Positions 2,573 to 60,342 of a DNA stretch of 60,363 nt are shown piece by piece. The notes below the pieces were generated by a model. It was not told the DNA's origin and did not search any database. It saw only the letters and a program-made list of their open reading frames with translations. Source of the stretch: a bacterium (GTDB lineage: Bacteria > CAIWAD01); contig JAUXWS010000018.1 of NCBI GenBank assembly GCA_030685015.1, positions 1-60,363 of the forward strand, given 5' to 3'. The translations under genes and the position numbers were made by a program. The number at the start of each line of letters is the position of its first letter. Position 1 is the stretch's first letter.

Positions 2573-3430
2573 TTATGTGGGCCGACAACCGCTCAGGAAG
2601 CGCGGTCGGCCGGACAGATCCCACCCCACCTCCAGGCTGTCGGCGCGGCCGGTAAACAGCTCCAGCAGAGCGGCGCCCTGGCTCTCCCCCATCTCCAGGT
2701 AGAAGCGTCCCCCCGGCACCAGCAGGCGGTCCAGGCCGCCGGCGAAGCGCCGGTAGAAGAGCAGTCCGTCCTCGCCGCCAAACAGGGCTTCCGCCGGCTC
2801 GTGCCCCAGCTCGGGCGCCAGGCTTCCTTGTTCGGGCAGGGAGACATAGGGCGGATTGGAGACCAGCAGATCGTGCCCCTCCCCGGGCCAGGCCTGCAGC
2901 AGGTTCAGCTGGCGGAACTCGATGCGCGAGGCCACGCCGTTGCGCTCCGCGTTGCCGCGCGCCACCTCCAGGGCCTCCCGGCTGCTGTCCACGGCCAGGA
3001 TCCGGCAGTCGGGCAGCTCCTGGGCCAGGCTGATCGCCACGCAGCCCGATCCCGTCCCGGCGTCGAGGATGCGCAGGCCGGGACGGCCGGCCTCGTGGGC
3101 GAGGACCAGCTCGACCAGCTCCTCCGTCTCGGGACGCGGGATCAGCACGCGCGAATCCACCCGCAGCTCCGCCCGGCGGAAGGGCTGGTCGCCCAGGATG
3201 TACTGCAGGGGCTCCCCGGCCGCCCTCCGGCGCAGCAGATTCCGCAGCCGCTCCCGCTCGGCCCCGCCCACCGGCCGGTCGTGCTGCAAGTAGAGGTCGA
3301 GGCGCCGGCAACCCAGCACCCGGGCCGCCAGCTCGTCCGCCTCGCGCGCCGCGTTCGCCACACCCTTGGCCGCCAGCCAGTCGCGCGAAAGCCTCAAGAG
3401 GGCACCCAGGTCGGGGGGCGGGGCCGTCAC
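2573..3430 (-). CDS. prmC: Release factor glutamine N5-methyltransferase (HemK)
   Basis: The 285-residue enzyme methylates the glutamine of the GGQ motif of class I peptide release factors using S-adenosylmethionine. An N-terminal helical domain is followed by a Rossmann-type methyltransferase domain with motif [14 protein letters not shown] and the glutamine-binding NPPY signature (near 190-193). Start is a GTG at 3430 that overlaps the prfA stop as GTGA, so translation is probably coupled to its substrate gene prfA, the common bacterial arrangement. Confidence 0.95.
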
Positions 3431-25364: not shown

Positions 25365-26753
25365 TCAATAGACGGGCCGCAGGAACCACAGGTCCCGCGC
25401 CCCGAATCCCATGCGCAGGCGGACGAAGTCCTCGTCGAGGACCGTGTCGCCGCTGCGCCCGGCCTCCAGGGCCAGGTCCAGCCAACTGCCATGGGCCTTG
25501 AGCGGCACGCCCGCCCCCAGGCTGAGCGTCACCGTCTCCACGTCGCGCCAGGAGCCGTCGGCTTGCTCCCGCCGGGCATACCATTCCTGCCAGCGCATGC
25601 CCGCCCGCCAGGTCAGGCGCCGGTACCAGGGAGCGGCGAACTCGCGGGAGAGGGGCAGGTCCAGGCCGAGGGCGAGGCCGATGGGATGGTCGACGCGCCC
25701 CTGGCGCTCGGCCGCCACGCTCCCCATGGGCACGCCGGACCAGTCCTGCAGGCGCAGGTCCAGCAGCCAGTCCACGCCGCCCTTGCGCCAGGCCAGGCCC
25801 AGCGAGTGCTCGGCCGGCAGATCGACCCGGCGGATGGGCAGTTCGGCGTCCTGGTCGTTGCCCTTGTTCTCCCGGTCCACGGTCAGATCGGCCGTGGAGG
25901 GTGGGGTCCAGACCAGGCCCAGCGCCAGGTCGGGCCGGGCCTGCCAATGGAGGCCCAGCCGGGTCTGGAAACCGAAGAGGGAGTGGCGCGTGTTCACCCA
26001 GCTGTCGTAGGGCGGGGCTGATTGGGGATAGAAGTTCTTCCATTCCTCCAGCACGCTGCCGAAGACAAGCCCCAGCTCAAGCCCGGCCCGCAGGGTGGGC
26101 GCCGGCGTGGGTGAGGCGATGGTGAGACCCGCCCGCGAGAGGCCGCCCCTCCCCTTGAGGGATTGCAATTGGACCCGACCCAGGGCGTCCACGCCCGACT
26201 GGGCCAGCAAGTAATCCACCTGGCTGATGGGGGTGAAACCCAATCCGACGTGCAGCTGGCGCCAGAGCAGTGGAAAGCCGAGGCCCCAGGAGTCGAAGGA
26301 GGCCGAACTCAGGGATTCCTCGGCGCCGCCGCTTTGGATGCGTGTGCGCGTGCCGCTGAAGTTGGTCTGGAAGCGGGTCAGGCGGCCGGCATGATAGAGG
26401 GCGGGGTTGTGCATGGACAGCCGGGTGCTGTCCTGGAGGGCCGCCCCCGCTCCGCCGCGGCCATGATCCGCCGCCGCGCCTTGCCACTGGATCTCCCCCC
26501 AGGGGGCGCTCGTGAGGGGTCCTCCCACCGCCGACGACAGGGCCAGGCACAGGCCGCCCAGGACGGCCAGCAGCCTGTTGGGCTTGGGCCTTGGATGGGA
26601 TTCGCGCCCAAATCGAGGCCGGTTATTCGGAATTTTCGCAGGGCATACTGGTTGTCTGTTCAAGAAAATTGCGGAAAATCCGGACCGATTGGGGCGATGA
26701 AGACCGCCAAGTGGCCAAGTCCGACAGGCTGCTAGGGTCCGGCGCGGGATCAT
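25365..26753 (-). CDS. FadL/OmpP1-like outer-membrane barrel protein
   Basis: 462 residues if the ATG at 26753 is used. That ATG overlaps the preceding stop (ATGA) and has GGGGAG five bases upstream, but the hydrophobic signal-peptide core (RLLAVLGGLCLALSSAVGG) only begins near residue 60, so a later start or an N-terminal leader is possible. No in-frame ATG lies between; a TTG at 26663 is the best alternative. The mature part (HGRGGAGAALQDSTRLSMHNPA, then many alternating strands ending in RDLWFLRPVY) fits FadL-type barrels. Substrate unknown. Confidence 0.7.
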   Translation of the reverse strand: MIPRRTLAACRTWPLGGLHRPNRSGFSAIFLNRQPVCPAKIPNNRPRFGRESHPRPKPNRLLAVLGGLCLALSSAVGGPLTSAPWGEIQWQGAAADHGRGGAGAALQDSTRLSMHNPALYHAGRLTRFQTNFSGTRTRIQSGGAEESLSSASFDSWGLGFPLLWRQLHVGLGFTPISQVDYLLAQSGVDALGRVQLQSLKGRGGLSRAGLTIASPTPAPTLRAGLELGLVFGSVLEEWKNFYPQSAPPYDSWVNTRHSLFGFQTRLGLHWQARPDLALGLVWTPPSTADLTVDRENKGNDQDAELPIRRVDLPAEHSLGLAWRKGGVDWLLDLRLQDWSGVPMGSVAAERQGRVDHPIGLALGLDLPLSREFAAPWYRRLTWRAGMRWQEWYARREQADGSWRDVETVTLSLGAGVPLKAHGSWLDLALEAGRSGDTVLDEDFVRLRMGFGARDLWFLRPVY

Positions 26754-28060
26754 GGTCTCCCCCAGCTGTCAGGGGCCCGACTGATCGTGTAGAAGAGCCG
26801 CGTCGGTTGTTGGAGGGGGTCGGCCAGACCCACTTGCCTGGGCTGCAGGAGGTTGTAGTCGTCCAACTTGAGCGCCAGGCGGATGGGATCCGTGTTGCGC
26901 AAGCTGTCGTCGTTGATCCAGATGCGGCGCAGGTGGGGCGTCAGGTTGAACTGAAGCAGGCTGTCGCCGTCCGCGATGGTGCGGGTGGCGATCAACTGGT
27001 CGGCGTTCAGATCGACGCCGGCGCTGTCGAAGAGGCTCACCGCGTAGAGGTTGACCTTGGCCCCGGTCACGTTGTAGCCGGGATCAGCCAGAGGGACGCG
27101 CAGCCAGGCCTCCGTCAAGGTGGAGCCGACAGGATCATAGTCGGGGTTGTCCGCGTCCGGCGGGAAGGGTGGCAACTGGGCCAGGACCTGGCCCGCCCAG
27201 CCGGTGGAGAGGGTGAGGCGGCCGGGCGCCGCCGTGTCGCGGATGAGGCTGGTCTGCCAGGTGGCCGCGACGAAGCTCGTGTCGCGGACGGTGTCGGGCA
27301 CTTGCACGTTGTCCACCAGGATGGTGTCGATCCGCATGCTGGCGAAGCGGACGCGGGGACGAAGTTCGGCGGCCCAGCCGGCTCCCAGGATGGGCGTGAA
27401 GCCTTGCTGGCCCGGCAGGGCGCGCAGGAGCAGCAGGCGCGAGCTGGTGTCGGCCGGTTGGAACCAGGCGGCGGGAAGGGCCCGCCAGGTGCGACGCCCG
27501 GTCAGGGGATCGCTTCCGTCGCCGAAGGCCGTGTCAGCCGAACTGACCCTGAACTGGATGCGGTCCAGCACTCCCAGGCGCAGCTCGCCGTCGGCGAAGG
27601 CGTCCTCCCAGGCCAGTCCATCATAACCAAGGCTGTCCGCGACAAGCAGCAGCTCCAGGTCCAGGTAGCGGGCGGACTCGCCCAGCTCGGGAGGATCCGG
27701 GCTCACCTGGGGGAACCACGCCAGGCTGGCCCGATTGTCCATCTTGAAGCTGAGGTAAGCGGTGAAGGCGTCCGCCACGGGCGGAGGGGACCACAAGGAG
27801 ACGGGCTGGTAGTCCATCCGGATGAGGAGGACGCTTTCCAGGCCAAGGGAGTCGCTGCGCCCCACGCAGTGCCGCCCGGCCGCCACCATGTTCTGGGGCC
27901 GGTGGAAGGGCAGCAGGGCCTCGGTGACCAGGCTGTCCACCACGGCCGACACCCGCCCCCCGGGAAGCCCGCCCAGGGTGCTCTCGGATTCGTCGCAAGC
28001 CATGAACACGACGGGCAGGGCGATGAAAGTCAGCAGGCCAAGCCGGCGGAAGAGTTGCAA
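26750..28060 (-). CDS. Uncharacterised secreted lipoprotein
   Basis: 436 residues from a TTG start at 28060 with AGGAAAG upstream. It has a signal peptide with lipobox VFMAC (cysteine at 22), then a mostly beta-rich, aspartate-rich secreted domain. I recognise no family. Sequence such as LTEAWLRVPLADPGYNVTGAKVNLYAVS and FNLTPHLRRIWINDD suggests immunoglobulin- or jelly-roll-like folds, which is a guess. Its position ahead of an outer-membrane barrel and a TPR lipoprotein suggests an envelope-assembly or surface function. It has its own promoter at 28099-28127. Confidence 0.7.
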   Translation of the reverse strand: MQLFRRLGLLTFIALPVVFMACDESESTLGGLPGGRVSAVVDSLVTEALLPFHRPQNMVAAGRHCVGRSDSLGLESVLLIRMDYQPVSLWSPPPVADAFTAYLSFKMDNRASLAWFPQVSPDPPELGESARYLDLELLLVADSLGYDGLAWEDAFADGELRLGVLDRIQFRVSSADTAFGDGSDPLTGRRTWRALPAAWFQPADTSSRLLLLRALPGQQGFTPILGAGWAAELRPRVRFASMRIDTILVDNVQVPDTVRDTSFVAATWQTSLIRDTAAPGRLTLSTGWAGQVLAQLPPFPPDADNPDYDPVGSTLTEAWLRVPLADPGYNVTGAKVNLYAVSLFDSAGVDLNADQLIATRTIADGDSLLQFNLTPHLRRIWINDDSLRNTDPIRLALKLDDYNLLQPRQVGLADPLQQPTRLFYTISRAPDSWGRP

Positions 28061-28098
28061 GGGTGCTTTCCTGAAGATCCGTGATTGTCTTTGGCCGG

Positions 28099-28355: not shown

Positions 28356-28371
28356 TGGCACGTCAATTGCT
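28356..28371 (+). promoter_or_regulatory. sigma-54 (RpoN) promoter of the first tandem secreted gene
   Basis: TGGCAC-N5-TTGCT is a perfect match to the -24/-12 consensus. Expected start near 28382, leaving a leader of about 95 bases. It recurs at matching positions before both paralogs. Confidence 0.75.
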
Positions 28372-28476
28372 TCATTGGTGCGCAGTGGGATCAGCCCCGT
28401 GCCCGGGAGTGATCCTGTCACCAAAAAACGAAATCGCATGAATTCGTAAATCTGTTTCACTTCTGGGGGATGACCT

Positions 28477-29442
28477 ATGAGCAGGAAGTTGATGACCTAT
28501 GCCCTGGGCTTCATTGTCTGCGGCCCCGCAGCCTTCGCCGTCACCTTTACGGGTGATGTGGCTGCGGACTTCGCCGTGGCGGGAAGCGTGACCGTGCTGG
28601 ACTCGCATGACGATGTGGGCCTTCCCAGCAATGCGCCCGCGGGCACCATTTCCGGTTGGGACCTGGACTACGCCGCCTTCGTGCTGGATCGCGCGGCGGG
28701 CGAGCTGCACATCGGTCTGGATTTCCGCGGTCTGGCCGGCGACGCCGACGGCGACGACCTGGATGGCGTGACCACCCTTTGGCTGGCGGCCAATGGTGGC
28801 CTGGACCTGCCGACCTTGAACATGTCCGAGTCCATCTGCATCGCCTTTGACTTCGACATGGACGGCACCTACGACGTGATCACGGGCATGGGCGGTCTGG
28901 ACGGTACTTACCGGGTGAGCGCCTTCACGGGCACGCCCATTCTGCCGGCTTTCGGTTTCGGTCCCCTCATCCCGCATGACGGCGGCCATTTCTACGGCTC
29001 CGACCTGGAGATGACCTTGAACAACATGGGCGTCCTGGCCAACCTGGATCCCACCGTCGAGCTTTGCTTCCGCTTCCTCTTCTTCGCCGGCTCCTTCCAG
29101 GATGACGGCATCGGCGAGGATCTGCTGCTGGGCGAAGTCTGCCTGCCGCCCGATGAGCTGGTGTCCGCCCTTCAGCCCGAGGGCATGAACCTGGTCAGCG
29201 CCTATCCCAATCCCTTCAATCCCACCACCACCCTCTCGGTGGAGCTGGGGCAAACGGGTCCCGTCCAGTTGTCGGTATACAACGTCAATGGCCAGCTGGT
29301 GCAGACCCTGGTCGACGGCATGATGGAGTCCGGTCGCCATGAGCTGAGCTTCAATGGCGCCGCCCTCTCCTCCGGCATCTACCTGGCCCGCCTGAGCACG
29401 GTCGGCGGGGAGCAAGTCACGCGACTGGTGCTGACCAAGTAA
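28477..29442 (+). CDS. Secreted calcium-motif protein with sorting tail, copy 1
   Basis: 321 residues. An N-terminal signal peptide ends near AAFA. Two DxDxDG-like calcium-binding loops occur at GDADGDD (near 88-94) and DFDMDGTYD (near 126-134). The C-terminal part from about 239 has YPNPFNPTTT and ends in VTRLVLTK, the FlgD/Por-type sorting domain used for type IX secretion in FCB bacteria. It resembles the second copy throughout. The function of the middle domain is unknown. It is monocistronic, with a sigma-54 promoter in front and a hairpin terminator behind. Confidence 0.85.
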   Translation: MSRKLMTYALGFIVCGPAAFAVTFTGDVAADFAVAGSVTVLDSHDDVGLPSNAPAGTISGWDLDYAAFVLDRAAGELHIGLDFRGLAGDADGDDLDGVTTLWLAANGGLDLPTLNMSESICIAFDFDMDGTYDVITGMGGLDGTYRVSAFTGTPILPAFGFGPLIPHDGGHFYGSDLEMTLNNMGVLANLDPTVELCFRFLFFAGSFQDDGIGEDLLLGEVCLPPDELVSALQPEGMNLVSAYPNPFNPTTTLSVELGQTGPVQLSVYNVNGQLVQTLVDGMMESGRHELSFNGAALSSGIYLARLSTVGGEQVTRLVLTK

Positions 29443-29467
29443 GCGCCTTCAACGCATCGCCTCGTTC

Positions 29468-29497
29468 AGAAGGGGCCGCCGGCAGGCGGCCCCTTCT
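29468..29497 (+). terminator. Hairpin terminator after copy 1
   Basis: A 13-base-pair perfect stem around a GGCA loop, starting 26 bases after the stop. The T-tract after it is short. Confidence 0.75.
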
Positions 29498-29603
29498 CTT
29501 GGCCCCTCCCCTAAGAATCCTCCCCATTCATCCTCCAACCTCAGGGTGGGATTACTGTCCGCCCACTGTGCTAGAGCGCCGGAATCTGCACACTCTCTAC
29601 GCA

Positions 29604-29623
29604 ACTCAATGAGTGCATTGAGT
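29604..29623. promoter_or_regulatory. Palindrome upstream of copy 2 promoter
   Basis: ACTCAATG-N4-CATTGAGT is a perfect 8-bp inverted repeat 31 bases ahead of the -24 element. It could bind an activator or repressor of this promoter, though it is closer than most enhancer sites. Confidence 0.35.
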
Positions 29624-29654
29624 GGATCCTGTTGATCTGATTAGGTTTGAGTTC

Positions 29655-29670
29655 TGGCACACGTCTTGCT
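29655..29670 (+). promoter_or_regulatory. sigma-54 promoter of copy 2
   Basis: TGGCAC-N5-TTGCT, perfect -24/-12 consensus; leader of about 80 bases before the ATG at 29764. Confidence 0.75.
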
Positions 29671-29763
29671 CCATCAGCCTGCAGTGGTGTCATAAGAACA
29701 ATCAATCAACTGGATGCGCATGGAGCCGACTCCATGTGTTGTCCTAAATGAGAAGGGGAAACC

Positions 29764-30729
29764 ATGAACAAAAAATTGCTTAGCTGCGCCTTGGGTGTCC
29801 TGGTCTGCGGACCGGCGGCCTTCGCCATCACCTTCACCGGTGATGTGGACGCCGACTTCACCGCACCCGAGGGCATCATCGTGCTGGACGGCGTCGGTGA
29901 CGTGGGCTTGCCGGCCAACGCGCCGCCCTTGACCATCTCGGGTTGGGACCTCAGCAAGTCCGCCTTCGAGCTGGTTCGCGCCACCGGTGAGCTGCATGTG
30001 GGCCTGGATTTCGTCGGCTTCGGCGGCGACGCCGACGGCGACGGCAACGGCGGTGTCACCAGCATCTGGCTGGCCTCCAATGGCGGCGTGGACCTGCCCG
30101 GTTTGGCCATGACGGAATCCATCTGCATCGCCTTCGATTTCGACCAGGATGGCGGCTACGACCTGATCGCCGGCGTGGGCGCCAACGACGGCGTCTTCCG
30201 CGTCAGCGATTTCGTGGGCCTGCCCAGCCTGCCGGCCTTCGCTTTCGGTCCGCTGGCCCCGCACGACGGCGGCCACTTCTTCGGACCCGACATGGAGCTG
30301 ACCCTGAGCAACCTCGGGTCGCTGGTCGACCTGGATCCGTCCGAACCCGTCTGCTTCAACTTCCTTGTCTTCGCCGGCTCCTATCAGGATGACGGCATCG
30401 GCGAGGACTACCAGGAAGGCGAGCTTTGCTTTCCGCCCGACGAGCTGGTGAGCGCGGTGGATCCGGTCAGCCCCACGCTGATCTCGGCCTATCCGAATCC
30501 CTTCAACCCGGCCACCACCCTGGCGGTGGAGCTTGGGCAGACGGGTCCTGTCGAGCTGTCCGTCTACAACCTGAACGGCCAGTTGGTGCAGACCCTGGTC
30601 AAGGGCATGATGGAAGCCGGTCGGCATGAGCTGAGCTTCGACGGCGCCGGGCTGCCCTCGGGCCTCTACCTGGCGAAGCTGGCCACGAGCCAGGGCACCC
30701 AGGTGACGCGCCTGGTGCTGACCAAGTAA
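29764..30729 (+). CDS. Secreted calcium-motif protein with sorting tail, copy 2
   Basis: 321 residues, same length as copy 1 and similar along the whole chain, including the signal peptide (CGPAAFA), calcium-type loops GDADGDGNGG and DFDQDGGYD, the PHDGGHFFG segment, and the tail YPNPFNPATT...VTRLVLTK. A recent tandem duplication is likely. Preceded by a perfect sigma-54 promoter and followed by a hairpin, so it is an independent transcription unit. Function unknown; secretion through a type IX-like route is inferred from the tail. Confidence 0.85.
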   Translation: MNKKLLSCALGVLVCGPAAFAITFTGDVDADFTAPEGIIVLDGVGDVGLPANAPPLTISGWDLSKSAFELVRATGELHVGLDFVGFGGDADGDGNGGVTSIWLASNGGVDLPGLAMTESICIAFDFDQDGGYDLIAGVGANDGVFRVSDFVGLPSLPAFAFGPLAPHDGGHFFGPDMELTLSNLGSLVDLDPSEPVCFNFLVFAGSYQDDGIGEDYQEGELCFPPDELVSAVDPVSPTLISAYPNPFNPATTLAVELGQTGPVELSVYNLNGQLVQTLVKGMMEAGRHELSFDGAGLPSGLYLAKLATSQGTQVTRLVLTK

Positions 30730-30754
30730 GCGACAAGGTCTCATCCCTCAGCAG

Positions 30755-30781
30755 GAAGGTCGCCCCCCGGGGGCGGCCTTC
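30755..30781 (+). terminator. Hairpin terminator after copy 2
   Basis: GC-rich inverted repeat with arms GAAGGTCGCCCCC and GGGGGCGGCCTTC, one G-U wobble, followed by TTGG. Starts 26 bases after the stop. Confidence 0.7.
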
Positions 30782-30808
30782 TTGGCATACCCTCCGATTG
30801 TTCAATTC

Positions 30809-30868
30809 CGGGCACATGATGCCCGATTTCAGCGCATGGCGCGTAGCATGGGCAGTTTTGAACATGCT
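30809..30868. promoter_or_regulatory. Two inverted repeats upstream of copy 3 promoter
   Basis: CGGGCA-N5-TGCCCG (30809-30825) and AGCATG-N12-CATGCT (30845-30868) lie 35-95 bases ahead of the -24 element, where sigma-54 enhancer sites can occur. Their sequences differ from those near the other copies. Confidence 0.3.
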
Positions 30869-30901
30869 CCAAATCCAATAGAATCAGGCCTCCCCTCCTC
30901 C

Positions 30902-30917
30902 TGGCACAGCTCTTGCG
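30902..30917 (+). promoter_or_regulatory. sigma-54 promoter of copy 3
   Basis: TGGCAC-N5-TTGCG matches the -24/-12 consensus at all invariant bases; leader of about 100 bases before 31032. Confidence 0.72.
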
Positions 30918-32006: not shown

Positions 32007-32029
32007 GGCCTGCATTAAAACTTGTCAAG

Positions 32030-32060
32030 GAGAGGGCCGCCCGTCGGGGGCGGCCCTCTC
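32030..32060. terminator. Bidirectional hairpin between convergent genes
   Basis: Perfect 13-bp stem GAGAGGGCCGCCC-N5-GGGCGGCCCTCTC. It lies between copy 3 (rightward) and a metallo-hydrolase (leftward) and can serve both. Confidence 0.75.
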
Positions 32061-32083
32061 TCGTGCTTGTCCCAGCCACCCGC

Positions 32084-32758
32084 TCAGCGGATGCCATGCC
32101 GCTTTTTGTAATCCAGCCAATTCTCTTTCAGCCAAAGAAAATCCTCGAAGCGGGAGCGAAGCAGGAAGGGGTTCTCCCGCCGCTCCCCGCCCATGGTGGA
32201 CGAAGGCCGCACGCCATAGTCGTGACCCGGCCAGACGCCCGTCTCCTCCGGACACCGCTCGAGCAGCCCCCGCAAGGAGGCGAACTCCCGACGCGCCGCC
32301 GCCTCGTCGATGCTCCCCCCCACCTTGCCCACGAAGAGCGTGTCCCCGGTCAGGAGCTGGGGAGGGCCGTCAAGGGCGGGCAGAAGCAGGCACAAGCTGC
32401 AGGGCGTGTGTCCTGGCGTGGGCAGGAGTGAGAGCGCCAGGCCGCCCAGGGGAAGCTCCTCTTCCTCGGAACCAAGCAGCCGTTCCGCCACTCGACCCGC
32501 CGCGCGGGAGAGGACGCGGGCGGCTCCGCTGGCCCGGTGCAGGTCATCCAGGCTGGCCACATGGTCCTCATGGCCATGGCTGCCCACCACCCAGCGCAGG
32601 GTGGCTTCGCTGGCGGCCAGTGCCTCCAGCAGACGGGATGGGTCGTGTCCGGGATCCAGGATGAGAGCCGCGCCGTCATGGACGACCAAATAGCCGAAGT
32701 TGCGGTCGCCCCCCGTCGCGTGCTGCTCCAGGCGCAGCCTTTGCCCCACGCCCCTCAT
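32084..32758 (-). CDS. Metallo-beta-lactamase fold hydrolase
   Basis: 224 residues with the zinc ligands HGHEDH, PTPGHTPCS, TGDTLFVGKVGGS and GHDYG. The overall pattern is that of glyoxalase II and persulfide dioxygenase-type enzymes; exact substrate is unknown. It lies 69 bases downstream of the nhaD-like gene and may be the last cistron of that operon. A TCACGTGA palindrome lies in the gap. Confidence 0.8.
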   Translation of the reverse strand: MRGVGQRLRLEQHATGGDRNFGYLVVHDGAALILDPGHDPSRLLEALAASEATLRWVVGSHGHEDHVASLDDLHRASGAARVLSRAAGRVAERLLGSEEEELPLGGLALSLLPTPGHTPCSLCLLLPALDGPPQLLTGDTLFVGKVGGSIDEAAARREFASLRGLLERCPEETGVWPGHDYGVRPSSTMGGERRENPFLLRSRFEDFLWLKENWLDYKKRHGIR

Positions 32759-43974: not shown

Positions 43975-44023
43975 GGCAGGCCCTGACAGCCCGCCGGCCT
44001 TCCCTTCCTGACCAGCATTGCCT

Positions 44024-44039
44024 TGGCCGCCTACTTGCC
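44024..44039 (+). promoter_or_regulatory. possible sigma-54 promoter of the large secreted protein
   Basis: TGGCCG-N5-TTGCC keeps the invariant GG and GC at the right 10-base spacing, but the -24 box is TGGCCG instead of TGGCAC. Start would be near 44050 and the ATG is at 44087. Confidence 0.4.
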
Positions 44040-44086
44040 CTATTTTCCCTGCGCTTGCCACCACACACAATGCAAGGAACACCGCC

Positions 44087-46534
44087 ATGAGAACGCTTCT
44101 GACTCTATCTCTCTGTGGCCTGCTGGTCCAGGGGGCCTGGTCCGCCCAGGCCGACCAGGCGCGCCGCGACATGCAGGGGCAGGTGCCCAACAAGGCCGCG
44201 AGCTACAAGGCCACCGGCGCCGAGGAGATTCCGCCGGTCAAGGCCCCCAGCCATTCCCCCATGGCGACCGACCTGGTGGGCGAGACGGTGCAGGTGGGCA
44301 CCACCACCTACGACTACCAAGCCAACGGCACCCTCTCCAAGATGGTCGCCGTCTCCGCCGACGGCGTGGCCCACGGCACCTTCATGTACTCCGCCGCCAT
44401 GGACCTGACCTGGGCCGACCGTCGGGTCAAGGCTTGGTGCGTCAATCCGGACCTCTCGGTGGTGGACGCCCTCAACGTGCACAACTCGCGGGCGGGCTAC
44501 ACCACGGCCGCCGCCACCAGCGCCAATCCGGTCAACGGCCTCCCCGCCAACAGCACGGTGGCGGCCTTCCACACCGGCTCGCCGGCCGACTCCTGGTTCG
44601 GCGTGGACTTCTTCGGCTGCACCCACGCCTTCGACCTGCTGCAGTACGGCTCCACCAATTTCCTGTGGCCCCATGTCGCCCTCAACGGCGACGACAAGGT
44701 GCACATGGTGGTTTATGATTCCGCCACCAGCTCCGACAATGTCTGGTATCGGGGCTCCACCAGCGGCACCAGCTGGGACGCCCCCACCATCCTGCTTACC
44801 AACCAAAGCGCGGCCCTGGGCTCCATCCCGGTGGGCAGCAAGACCTCATCCCGCACCGCCGTCCTCTACCACCACAAGACCGGGACGGACGACATCCCCT
44901 ACGACATGGGATCAGGCTTCATCGGCATCCAGATCCACCATGACATCCGCGGCTATGTGGCGAACGATGGGGACATCTACGCCCAGCACAGCGCCGCCAA
45001 CGAGATCAACTTCACCAGTTTCGGACCCGCCAGCATGGCCCCCTTCGGCCCCTACGGCAGCCGCGCCTATTGTGACGTGGACGGCCTCTTCGATCATACG
45101 GAGGACACCGAATTCCACATCGCCTACACGGGCGGACCCCAGTGGACGGACACGCTCCACGTCATCTGGGACGAGGCGGCGGAGGACTCCCTGACGGAAG
45201 TCTACATGCACTGGAACCTGGGCCGCGGGCAGATCTGGCACCACAATTACGACACCGGCACCTGGGGCCACATCTGGGGCTCCAACTGCCTGGTGGACCC
45301 CACGGACGTGTCCTGGGTGGACGCCGGCGCCTGGCGCCAGCGCAACGACCATCCCAGCCTGGCGGTGGATCCGTCCACGGGCTACCTCTATTGCGCCTGG
45401 AACCAGTATTCCGCCGACGACATGGGGCCGGTGGACGCCGCCGGCGACTCCTACCCCAACGGCGAGATCTACATCTCCTGCTCGGCGGACAACGGCCTGA
45501 CTTGGGGCCAGCCCGTCAACGTGACGGAGACGCCCAGCCCCGATTGCGTCTCCGGCGAGTGCCTGAGCGAGAGCTGGCACAGCCTGGCCGAGATCGTCGA
45601 CGGCCACCTGCACTTGACCTATGTGCTGGACCGCTGCCCGGGCGGCATTCCCCAGGAGGAGTGCTTCTCCACGCTCAACCCCGTGATCTACCACCGTATC
45701 CCCGTGGCCGAGATCCCGCCCCATGCCGGCACGCCCTGGAACGCGGCGGGCCGGGTCGGCCTGGCCCAGACCAAGCGCTGGTACCGCTGGTATGCCGCCG
45801 CCTGGTGCGGCGAGGGCTCCGTGCTGGACAGCGTGAAGTGGATCGATCCGGTCCATGTTTTCAACGAGGCCCCCTTCGACGTGCAGCTGGACCGCATCAG
45901 CTGGCACCACAACATGCTGGACCAGATCGGTCCGCCCGAGGCCCTGGGCATCACCGAGGTGGGCGTCACGGTGAAGACCCCCGACGGCTATGTGCCCCTG
46001 GAGGGCTGGAACGGCCTCCTGCCCAGCTGGCGCGGCACCAAGTTCAACGTGCACTTCGCCTACAGCGGCCTGACCAATTCCGACGTGCTGATCGGCTTCC
46101 ACTTCACGGACGACCGCCCCTCCCTCTACTACCGCCTGGACATGGAGAACGCCCTCCAGGGCGAGCCGGAGCCCTGCACGGGGGTGATCCCCATCCCCAT
46201 CGAGAACATCGCCCAGTTCGAGGAGACGGTCCTCCACCAGTTCAGCAGCCTGGGCGACCCGTGGCGGCCGATCCAGTTCAATCTTGAGCAGAACGTGCCC
46301 AACCCCTTCAACCCGGCCACCACCATCCGCTACAGCCTGGAGGCGGGCGCGCCCGTGGTGCTCAAGGTCCACAACCTGGCGGGCCAGCTCGTCCACGAGC
46401 GGCAGGTGGGCTTCCAGGGGGCGGGCTGGCACCAGCTCAGCTTCGACGGCAGCCAGCTGGCCAGCGGCGTGTACCTCTACACGATCGAGGCTGGCCTCCA
46501 GACCATGACCCGCAAGATGCTGTTGGCGAAGTAA
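44087..46534 (+). CDS. Large secreted protein with Asp-box and C-terminal sorting domain
   Basis: 815 residues from the ATG at 44087, which has AAGGAA in front. A signal peptide (about 1-20) is followed by a beta-rich body. SADNGLTW near 467 is a BNR/sialidase Asp-box, and other stretches (HPSLAVDPSTGYLYCAWNQY) look like propeller blades; no catalytic residues can be named. The tail from about 725 (QNVPNPFNPATT...TRKMLLAK) is the FlgD/Por-type sorting domain. It is a stand-alone gene divergent from trxB, closed by a hairpin. Confidence 0.78.
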   Translation: MRTLLTLSLCGLLVQGAWSAQADQARRDMQGQVPNKAASYKATGAEEIPPVKAPSHSPMATDLVGETVQVGTTTYDYQANGTLSKMVAVSADGVAHGTFMYSAAMDLTWADRRVKAWCVNPDLSVVDALNVHNSRAGYTTAAATSANPVNGLPANSTVAAFHTGSPADSWFGVDFFGCTHAFDLLQYGSTNFLWPHVALNGDDKVHMVVYDSATSSDNVWYRGSTSGTSWDAPTILLTNQSAALGSIPVGSKTSSRTAVLYHHKTGTDDIPYDMGSGFIGIQIHHDIRGYVANDGDIYAQHSAANEINFTSFGPASMAPFGPYGSRAYCDVDGLFDHTEDTEFHIAYTGGPQWTDTLHVIWDEAAEDSLTEVYMHWNLGRGQIWHHNYDTGTWGHIWGSNCLVDPTDVSWVDAGAWRQRNDHPSLAVDPSTGYLYCAWNQYSADDMGPVDAAGDSYPNGEIYISCSADNGLTWGQPVNVTETPSPDCVSGECLSESWHSLAEIVDGHLHLTYVLDRCPGGIPQEECFSTLNPVIYHRIPVAEIPPHAGTPWNAAGRVGLAQTKRWYRWYAAAWCGEGSVLDSVKWIDPVHVFNEAPFDVQLDRISWHHNMLDQIGPPEALGITEVGVTVKTPDGYVPLEGWNGLLPSWRGTKFNVHFAYSGLTNSDVLIGFHFTDDRPSLYYRLDMENALQGEPEPCTGVIPIPIENIAQFEETVLHQFSSLGDPWRPIQFNLEQNVPNPFNPATTIRYSLEAGAPVVLKVHNLAGQLVHERQVGFQGAGWHQLSFDGSQLASGVYLYTIEAGLQTMTRKMLLAK

Positions 46535-56901: not shown

Positions 56902-59900
56902 ATGAAGAAATCGCTGATTGCCGCTTTGATGGTCTCGGTGGCGGGGGGAGCGGTGGCGGCCACGCTGCAGCCCAGCCTGTCCAACCAGCAGATCAAGGCG
57001 GTCCACACCGACCTGTCCGCCAGCCAGACCAAGACGGCGGGCGTTCAGGCACAGCCACAATGGGAGGGCTGGCCGGGCGCCCGGGGCGAGGTCAAGCTGC
57101 CGCAGGAGATGGGCTTCGCCACGCCGGCGGAGGCCGAGTACTACCACCTCAAGCTGCAGGATCTCCCCATTCCCGCGAGCCTGTTGCTGGAGGTCTTCGG
57201 ACCGCCGGCCCAGGGCGGCGCCCGCAACGGCGGCGAGACCTTCGCCACGGCGGCACCCATCACCTTCACGGCGGGCGGCACCTTCACCGACAACGGCACC
57301 ACCGTCGGCTTCGCCAACGACATCCCCTCGGGACAGGTGGCGCCGGCCATGTGCAACACCAGTTTCTTCACCGTCAGCTTCGGCGGCCCGGACGCGGTCT
57401 ACACCTTCACCCTGCCCGCGGCCTACACCGTCTCGGCCAGCACTTGCAACAACGCCTCCTACGACAGTTGCCTGGGCATCTTCAACTCCGCCGGACAGCT
57501 GGTGGCGGTGAACGATGACGGGACTGGCTGCTCCAACTGGAGCAGCCTCATCGACCCCTGCTGCCTGGCAGCCGGCACCTATTATGTGGTGGTGGACGGC
57601 TACGGCGCGGACAGCGGCACCTACACGCTGACGGTGGCCTTCGGCGCCACCCCCTGCGGCACGGTGAACCCCTGTGACGACGCGCCCACCCTGGGATGCG
57701 GCGGCAGCGCCACGGGCACGACCGTGGGCAACCAGAACTACGTGGGCAACCCCGCCCCCGATGCCTTCTTCGAGATCGTCATCACCGAGTCCGGCCCCGT
57801 CACCTTCAGCCTCTGCGACGGCGGAACCAATTATGACAGCTTCCTGCGCCTCTACAACGGCTGCCCGACCACGGGCGGCGTGGAGATCGGCGCCAACGAC
57901 GACGCCTGCGGCCTCCAGTCGGAGCTGGTGGTCGCCCTGGATCCCGGCACCTACTGGCTGGTGGTGGAGGGCTACTCCAGCGCCTCGGGCAACTACAGCC
58001 TGGACATCAACTGCGCCAGCTGCGACCCCATCACCTGCGTGGGCATCGACGAGGGCGAGCCCAACAGCGGCCCGGCCGAGTTCGGCGGCAACGACACCTA
58101 CGGCGAGATCGACTGCGGCGTCACCGTCTGTGGCACGGTCTGGGCCATCGGCGGCACGCGCGACACGGACTGGCTGGAACTCTTCCTGCTGGAAGGCAGC
58201 ATCCTGACCATCACGAGCGAGGTCGAGCTGTTCGACCCCCTTGTCTTCGTCATCGACGCCACCTACAACATCGTCGCCCAGGCCAACAACAACGGCTTCT
58301 GCGAGGGCGAGTCCCTCACGACCGACTGCCTGGCCGCCGGCATCTACTATGTGTGGATGGGCCACTCCTCTTTCGATGGCGTGCCCGAGGACCAAGCCTA
58401 CAGCATCAGCCTGAGCTGCGCCCCCTGCACGCCCATCGATCCCTGCGACGCCGCCACGCCCATCGCCTGCAACCAGACCGTCAACGGCAACAGCGGCATG
58501 AGCCAGGGCAACGCCTGGGAGACTTACTGCTTCGGCGGCGAGAATGGCCCGGAAGTCCTCTACCAGCTGAACCACTCCGGCGGCTTCCTCACCATCACCA
58601 TGACCAGCGGCACAACCGAAGACCTGGACATGGCCCTGCTGGGCAGCTGCGACCCGTTGGACTGCCTGGACATGCCCTGGGCCGTCGGTCCCAATGAATC
58701 CATGAGCGGCACCTACCCGGCCGGCACCTACTACATCGTGGTGGACGCCTGGAACTGGTCCGGCAGTGCCTTCTCCTTCACCCTCAACGTGGTCTGCGGC
58801 GCCGACCCCTGCGAGGACGTGCAGCCGGTCAACTGCCTGGGGACGCCGGAGACCGAGCCCAACGAGGGCTGGAACGACCAAAACGCCAGCTACAACACCC
58901 TTGTCTGCGGCGAAGTGAAGTGTGGTTCCGTGTGGGCCACGGGCGGCAACCGCGACCTCGACTGGTACCGCTTCGTGCACACGGGCGGCGACCTCTTGAT
59001 CGAGACCCAGATCGAGGCCTTCGACTGCATCCTCTTCCTGACCGACTTCGCCCTGGGCGGCAACATCATCGCCTCTAGCAACGCGGCTCCCATGTGCGTG
59101 CCCGAGACCATGTTCGTCCCGGCCGTGCCGGCGGGCGAATACTACGTCGTGATCGCCCACAGCCTCTTCGAGGGCGTGCCCAACGACCAGGACTACGCCC
59201 TGCTCGTGACCTGCTTCGGCGACCCCTGCGAGGACCACACCCCCATCACCTGCGTGGGCACGGCCGAGACCGAGCCCAACGAGGGTTGGAACGCCACCCC
59301 GCCCAATGACAGCTACGGCCTCATCGCCGACGGCCAGACGATTTGCGGCAGCGTGTGGGCCGACGCCGGCACCCGCGACCTCGACTGGTTCCGCTTCACG
59401 GTGACCGAGACGGTCAACGTGCGCATCAGCTCCGAGGTGGACTGGTTCGACTGCATCCTCTTCCTGACCGATTTCGCGGCGGGCGGCAACATCCTCACCG
59501 CGGCCGATGCCAATGGCGCTTGCACGGGCGAGATGATCCTCTACGAGTGCCTCAGCCCGGGCCAGTACTACGCCGTCATCGCCCACAACGCGTTCGAGGG
59601 CGTGCCCGAGGACCAGAACTACAGCCTGACGCTGGAGTTCGAGACCTGCACGCCGGTGGATCCCTGCGCCGACATGGTCAACGGCGGCAATCTGGAGAAC
59701 CTCTACACCGTGAGCCGCCCCGCCCCCATCGCCAACCACCACAATGCGGTGAACGGCTGCACGGGCATCTCCTCGGCCGGCTATGACGAGCTGCACATGC
59801 TGACCCTGACCGCCCAGGCGGACGTGCGCGTCACCATGACAGGACAGGGCAACGCCGACGAGGTGATCTACATCCTGACCAATTGCCAGAGCACGGCATC

Positions 59901-60342
59901 CTGCGTCGCCGGCAGGGACGAATTTGGCAACAACCTGGGGGGCGAGACGATGGACGTGGCCAACCTCCCGGCCGGGACCTACTACATCGTGGCGGACTAC
60001 TGGGGCAGCGCCGAGGCCCGCGCCTTCACGCTGCAAGTGCGCAACCTGACCACGGCCCTGGGCGAGACCTTCACGCCCCTCGCCTTCGAGTTGCAGCAGA
60101 ACTACCCGAACCCCTTCAACCCGACCACGACGATCAGCTGGACCCAGCCTGATCTGATGCCGGCCTCCCTGGCCGTCTACAACTTGGCGGGCGCGGTGGT
60201 GCAGGAGTTCAACCTGGGCTTCCGCGGCGCGGGCGTCCACAGCTACACCTGGGACGCCTCCCAGCTTCCCAGCGGCGTCTACTTCTACAGCCTGACGACG
60301 GGCGGTGAGACCCTGACCCGCAAGGCCGTCCTGCTGAAGTGA
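56902..60342 (+). CDS. Giant secreted PPC-repeat protein with sorting tail
   Basis: 1146 residues. An N-terminal signal peptide (AGGAVAA) is followed by a mature region made almost wholly of PPC-like beta-sandwich modules. Three close repeats of about 130 residues (about 379-513, 645-773 and 784-920) share CGSVWA..G.RD.DW..F and YY.VIAH..FEGVP.DQ.Y, and four other PPC-type modules flank them. Many cysteines suggest disulfides or metal sites. No catalytic domain is seen, so it is probably a binding or surface-layer protein. The tail (QQNYPNPFNPTTT...TRKAVLLK) is FlgD/Por type. AAGGGAGAG precedes the ATG. Confidence 0.82.
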   Translation: MKKSLIAALMVSVAGGAVAATLQPSLSNQQIKAVHTDLSASQTKTAGVQAQPQWEGWPGARGEVKLPQEMGFATPAEAEYYHLKLQDLPIPASLLLEVFGPPAQGGARNGGETFATAAPITFTAGGTFTDNGTTVGFANDIPSGQVAPAMCNTSFFTVSFGGPDAVYTFTLPAAYTVSASTCNNASYDSCLGIFNSAGQLVAVNDDGTGCSNWSSLIDPCCLAAGTYYVVVDGYGADSGTYTLTVAFGATPCGTVNPCDDAPTLGCGGSATGTTVGNQNYVGNPAPDAFFEIVITESGPVTFSLCDGGTNYDSFLRLYNGCPTTGGVEIGANDDACGLQSELVVALDPGTYWLVVEGYSSASGNYSLDINCASCDPITCVGIDEGEPNSGPAEFGGNDTYGEIDCGVTVCGTVWAIGGTRDTDWLELFLLEGSILTITSEVELFDPLVFVIDATYNIVAQANNNGFCEGESLTTDCLAAGIYYVWMGHSSFDGVPEDQAYSISLSCAPCTPIDPCDAATPIACNQTVNGNSGMSQGNAWETYCFGGENGPEVLYQLNHSGGFLTITMTSGTTEDLDMALLGSCDPLDCLDMPWAVGPNESMSGTYPAGTYYIVVDAWNWSGSAFSFTLNVVCGADPCEDVQPVNCLGTPETEPNEGWNDQNASYNTLVCGEVKCGSVWATGGNRDLDWYRFVHTGGDLLIETQIEAFDCILFLTDFALGGNIIASSNAAPMCVPETMFVPAVPAGEYYVVIAHSLFEGVPNDQDYALLVTCFGDPCEDHTPITCVGTAETEPNEGWNATPPNDSYGLIADGQTICGSVWADAGTRDLDWFRFTVTETVNVRISSEVDWFDCILFLTDFAAGGNILTAADANGACTGEMILYECLSPGQYYAVIAHNAFEGVPEDQNYSLTLEFETCTPVDPCADMVNGGNLENLYTVSRPAPIANHHNAVNGCTGISSAGYDELHMLTLTAQADVRVTMTGQGNADEVIYILTNCQSTASCVAGRDEFGNNLGGETMDVANLPAGTYYIVADYWGSAEARAFTLQVRNLTTALGETFTPLAFELQQNYPNPFNPTTTISWTQPDLMPASLAVYNLAGAVVQEFNLGFRGAGVHSYTWDASQLPSGVYFYSLTTGGETLTRKAVLLK

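Follow-up and report, generated by a model that had tools for sequence, protein, structure and literature searches.

Sigma-54-type promoters precede each of three tandem genes for predicted T9SS cargo proteins and point to a wider sigma-54 regulon in a CAIWAD01 bacterium

Results

Organization of the tandem locus

The DNA analyzed here (hereafter the window) is a stretch of 60,363 nucleotides from a draft genome of the GTDB lineage CAIWAD01 (assembly GCA_030685015.1, contig JAUXWS010000018.1), and it carries three consecutive paralogous genes, each preceded by a sequence of the sigma-54 -24/-12 type and followed by a strong hairpin (Table 1). Both genes flanking the tandem lie on the reverse strand: the upstream one (26750-28069) encodes a divergent protein that matches no Pfam family, and the downstream one (32084-32758) a metallo-beta-lactamase-fold hydrolase.

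Table 1. Coordinates of the tandem genes and associated sequence features in the window
Feature	Position	Strand	Remarks
Sigma-54 -24/-12 element, paralog 1 (TGGCACGTCAATTGCT)	28356..28371	+	ATG 121 nt downstream
Paralog 1, 321 aa	28477..29442	+	Signal peptide-like start, T9SS type A sorting tail
Strong hairpin 3' of paralog 1, probable terminator	29468..29497	+	-30 kcal/mol, z -3.8; short T tract
Inverted repeat ACTCAATG-AGTG-CATTGAGT	29604..29623		About 50 nt upstream of the paralog 2 element
Sigma-54 -24/-12 element, paralog 2 (TGGCACACGTCTTGCT)	29655..29670	+	ATG 109 nt downstream
Paralog 2, 321 aa	29764..30729	+	Signal peptide-like start, T9SS type A sorting tail
Strong hairpin 3' of paralog 2, probable terminator	30752..30784	+	-29.2 kcal/mol, z -4.4
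Sigma-54 -24/-12 element, paralog 3 (TGGCACAGCTCTTGCG)	30902..30917	+	ATG 130 nt downstream
Paralog 3, 324 aa	31032..32006	+	Signal peptide-like start, T9SS type A sorting tail
Strong hairpin 3' of paralog 3, probable terminator	32029..32061	+	About -34 kcal/mol, z -4.4

The three products share 56-69% pairwise identity, and their signal peptide-like starts were recognized with a simple script score based on charge and a hydrophobic stretch. All three exceed the NCBIfam cut-off of the sorting-tail model TIGR04183, with paralog 3 falling just below the Pfam cut-off, and the type A tail (TIGR04183 / PF18962) is found in all seven members of the family. Taken with the T9SS translocon SprA (PF14349), which scores above cut-off in this genome and in four others (G001-G004), the sorting tail backs the proposal of the first-pass annotation that the tandem encodes a surface protein family.

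The N-terminal domain is restricted in this genome to the three tandem paralogs. It has no Pfam family above cut-off, and no solved structure matched it in a sequence search, whose weak hits fell mostly on the sorting tail. Its Asp/Gly-rich motifs (GDADGDG, DFDQDG) could bind calcium. An AlphaFold2 model built from the seven-sequence alignment is of low confidence (mean pLDDT 66), and its fold matches in the PDB, generic Ig-like folds with a TM of about 0.2, were dismissed as uninformative.

Within the window, exact instances of TGGCAC-N5-TTGC are confined to the three positions upstream of the paralogs, all on the forward strand, where the first-pass annotation had correctly placed them and measured their distances to the gene starts. 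It had also asserted that three such matches in three successive gaps were very improbable, and the numbers agree: the exact matches expected from the base composition of each gap amount to 2.4e-4, 3.7e-4 and 3.6e-4, with a product of about 3e-11. A strict terminator scan called none of the three hairpins, missing them because their T tracts are short; given a strong hairpin after each paralog, the tandem has the appearance of three separate sigma-54 transcription units.

Genome-wide excess of the motif and enrichment upstream of T9SS cargo genes

The 3.61 Mb genome contains 23 occurrences of TGGCAC-N5-TTGC, against 2 for the reversed pattern, and 15 of TGGCAT-N5-TTGC, against 0. The sixth base of the -24 box is thus variable (C or T), and the combined TGGCAY-N5-TTGC pattern, with 38 sites versus 2 in the reversed-pattern control, is in roughly 19-fold excess.

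The genome harbors about 112 sorting-tail places, including the window paralogs. Upstream regions were scanned for 107 sorting-tail genes in addition to the window's own, 97 of them with an assigned start, allowing at most one mismatch and none in the GG or GC positions. Upstream of these 97 genes and on the same strand, the scan returned 18 near-exact matches, compared to none for the reversed pattern; further controls yielded 5 matches on the opposite strand, some of which may reflect divergent genes, and 3 within genes. Conversely, 16 of the 38 TGGCAY sites directly precede a sorting-tail gene where 1.2-1.6 would be expected (P of about 1e-12 to 2e-14, based on an estimated gene total of 2600-3400), and the enrichment persists when the three focal sites are left out (13/35 sites, P of about 1e-9 to 4e-11). 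Two sites (C76:60154 and C36:24455) that are followed by a small secreted protein and then by a sorting-tail gene were left out of this direct count. Sigma-54 sites hence lie before approximately one in seven T9SS cargo genes of the genome, and the scan of other sorting-tail genes that the first-pass annotation had proposed is positive.

Among the other TGGCAY sites are those upstream of dnaK and hsp20, of two flagellar rod genes and of a small number of further secreted proteins. One lies far (365 nt) from the start of a katG-like gene, and for some exact sites (e.g. C67:41542, C71:20778 and C82:35963) a target gene is not evident or the site falls inside coding sequence. Two further sorting-tail genes are present in the window (44018-46534, 838 aa; 56902-60342, 1146 aa, with an additional PPC domain), and both lack a near-exact sigma-54 site in their upstream regions. 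Elsewhere in the same genome, overlapping TGGCAC-N5-TGGC matches recur every 11 bases at C19:18931-18989 and C24:13045-13125, which suggests 11-base tandem repeats.

Conservation of the promoters in a second genus

A profile of the three paralogs was searched against 98 genomes and identified relatives in three, all belonging to one family: the genome under study, one of the same genus (G001) and one of another genus in the family (G003). The latter carries a three-gene tandem, matching record JAUIFJ010000026.1 ('bacterium isolate 8_bin.8'), with elements TGGCACACCGATTGC, TGGCATGCGGCTTGC and TGGCACAATGCTTGC located 97, 86 and 71 nt, respectively, before the ATG. GG at -24, GC at -12 and the spacing of ten bases are present in all three window sites and in all three sites of the related genus, and the ten fixed bases are intact in all six promoters (9/10 in one relative copy). 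The DNA around the six elements displays no evident similarity between copies, and the genes neighboring the tandem differ between the two genomes. The persistence of intact elements amid diverged flanks argues that selection has kept each copy.

The motif is in excess over the control in all four genomes G001-G004. In G003, sigma-54 sites also precede dnaK, flgB-like and flgF/G-like genes, and five more lie before sorting-tail genes. The dnaK element is thus found in both genera, 25 nt (this genome, L006:3-1490) and 69 nt (G003, L271:3532-5472) before the assumed start, and elements upstream of flagellar rod genes likewise occur in both. A second conserved target is an orphan, a small secreted protein with no Pfam match that is 48% identical across genera (L240:1574-2263, 230 aa; L254:600-1280, 227 aa) and has the element at 73 and 129 nt.

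The same comparison bears on the best-surviving alternative, namely that these are real sigma-54 promoters derived from a single ancestral promoter copied together with its gene, so that the three sites would count as approximately one event. The genes are paralogs, and in the phylogenetic tree the tandem copies cluster by genome, with paralog 3 grouping with the only copy in G001, for which a contig end truncates the upstream DNA; duplication of gene and promoter together is therefore likely to have happened at least once. Set against this, the surrounding DNA no longer aligns while the fixed bases remain intact in six promoters, and 13 other, unrelated cargo genes also have a site. We give copying of this kind even odds; it alters how the sites should be counted and not what they do, and is compatible with RpoN-dependent transcription of the three genes.

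Sigma-54 machinery and candidate activator sites

The first-pass annotation had proposed a search of the genome for rpoN and for sigma-54 activators, and both are present. A single, complete rpoN gene encodes the activator-interacting, core-binding and DNA-binding domains, with an RpoN box in a protein whose C-terminal end reads ARRTVQKYREQLRIP. The genome also encodes 17 strong sigma-54 activator domains; 15 of them were inspected, and 12 of these contain the GAFTGA/GSFTGA loop.

The inverted repeat upstream of the paralog 2 element is a possible activator site, and it is absent upstream of paralogs 1 and 3. A search for activator sites revealed no word pair common to the promoters beyond that seen in shuffled sequences. 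The same search returned 52 inverted repeats, compared to 14.7 in mononucleotide shuffles, an excess that was rejected as a sign of activator sites, the count being inflated by overlapping arms and by hairpins that belong to the genes upstream. Given this inflated count and the lack of a common word pair, no activator site is claimed.

Discussion

At the level of sequence, RpoN dependence of the tandem genes is strongly supported by the combination of exact sites, genome-wide excess of the motif, enrichment upstream of cargo genes, conservation and the presence of rpoN and its activators. In the model we put forward, each tandem gene would constitute its own transcription unit, with RpoN polymerase starting at the -24/-12 element and an AAA+ activator needed at each of the three promoters. 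The products would leave the cytoplasm through Sec by means of their signal peptide and then cross the outer membrane through the T9SS using the C-terminal sorting tail, and the tandem would form part of a wider sigma-54 regulon that encompasses about one seventh of T9SS cargo genes together with dnaK, hsp20 and flagellar rod genes. We assign a probability of about 0.88 to this reading of the locus as three RpoN-dependent, activator-requiring single-gene units within a T9SS-cargo, chaperone and flagellar regulon, which is drawn from sequence. Counting against it are the failure to find a common activator-binding motif, the variable sixth base of the -24 box, the exact sites with no evident target gene or inside coding sequence, and a gene total in the enrichment that is an estimate.

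The part of the first-pass interpretation that invoked RpoN-dependent, activator-driven expression is well supported, given rpoN, the 17 activator domains, the approximately 19-fold motif excess, the cargo enrichment and the conservation in another genus, and its surface-protein part is supported by the sorting tail and SprA. Its suggestion of surface or developmental states is a guess that the analysis does not support: the co-targets (chaperones, flagellar rod and T9SS cargo) would point as much to control by envelope, motility or stress conditions. RpoN binding and transcription from the elements themselves, the participation of an activator and a signal of this type are what we infer.

An alternative that we regard as improbable is that the genes are transcribed mainly from other promoters, recognized by a housekeeping or ECF sigma factor, with the -24/-12 elements being minor or inactive. 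T9SS component genes of Bacteroidota are under the control of an ECF sigma factor, as cited in PMC9723704, and the sprB operon of Flavobacterium psychrophilum has a second promoter beside its sigma-54 promoter (PMC9723704). A scan of the stretch for sigma-70-type promoters found no match, a null result that weighs little because the consensus used may not be the lineage's own. Inactive elements would be hard to reconcile with the observed excess, biased placement and conservation. Chance matches in a sequence rich in TGGC and TTGC words, as might be read from the 28 matches in the window versus 29 in shuffles when two mismatches are allowed, can be dismissed as extremely improbable, because the reversed control refutes them at the level of exact sites (38 versus 2 genome-wide) and the tandem of the second genus repeats the pattern.

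A sigma-54 promoter stays silent unless an activator acts on it, and these surface proteins are therefore probably made under particular conditions only, which would make the regulon a direct handle on their purpose. For a lineage known here from draft genomes alone, the data outline a sigma-54 regulon of secreted surface proteins that is clear at the level of sequence. More tentatively, and with somewhat less than even confidence, we suggest that sigma-54, acting with a single dedicated activator or a small set of them, may be a standing regulator of a subset of T9SS cargo together with chaperones and flagellar genes, a combination common to this lineage and the Bacteroidota; if true, this would imply an envelope regulon that is either old or has evolved more than once, with tandem cargo genes retained as sigma-54 units that fire separately.

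Comparison with known systems

A literature search on sigma-54 or RpoN together with T9SS retrieved nothing directly relevant beyond the study of F. psychrophilum (PMC9723704). In that organism, sigma-54 promoters have been mapped before dnaK, groESL, other chaperones, exported proteins and the sprB operon, which encodes a T9SS-secreted adhesin and whose sigma-54 promoter was confirmed by promoter mutagenesis (PMC9723704). This precedent makes T9SS cargo under sigma-54 control a known kind of system. As in the F. psychrophilum sigma-54 (SM4) regulon, dnaK and T9SS cargo appear here as targets; the differences lie in the lineage, in the 16 separate cargo genes, in the flagellar rod genes, in the own promoter of each tandem copy and in the nature of the evidence, which here is genomic sequence (PMC9723704). 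What is new is the broad subset of cargo, its occurrence in another lineage, the retention of an own promoter by each tandem copy and the conservation across genera, which extend a single experimental case, the flavobacterial sprB operon, to many T9SS cargo genes, with an independent genus backing the regulon.

The tandem proteins resemble T9SS type A cargo (TIGR04183 / PF18962) in the tail carried by all seven members and in the SprA of the genome, and differ from known cargo of this type in an N-terminal domain that lacks a Pfam family or a solved structure and occurs in 3 of 98 genomes. At a broader level, Francke et al. (2011; PMC3162934) have argued that sigma-54 is a controller of the bacterial exterior. 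The passages considered emphasize polysaccharide, flagella, LPS, lipoproteins and wall precursors, and the word 'secreted' is absent from the text; the targets described there and those outlined here have in common that they serve surface, motility and envelope functions.
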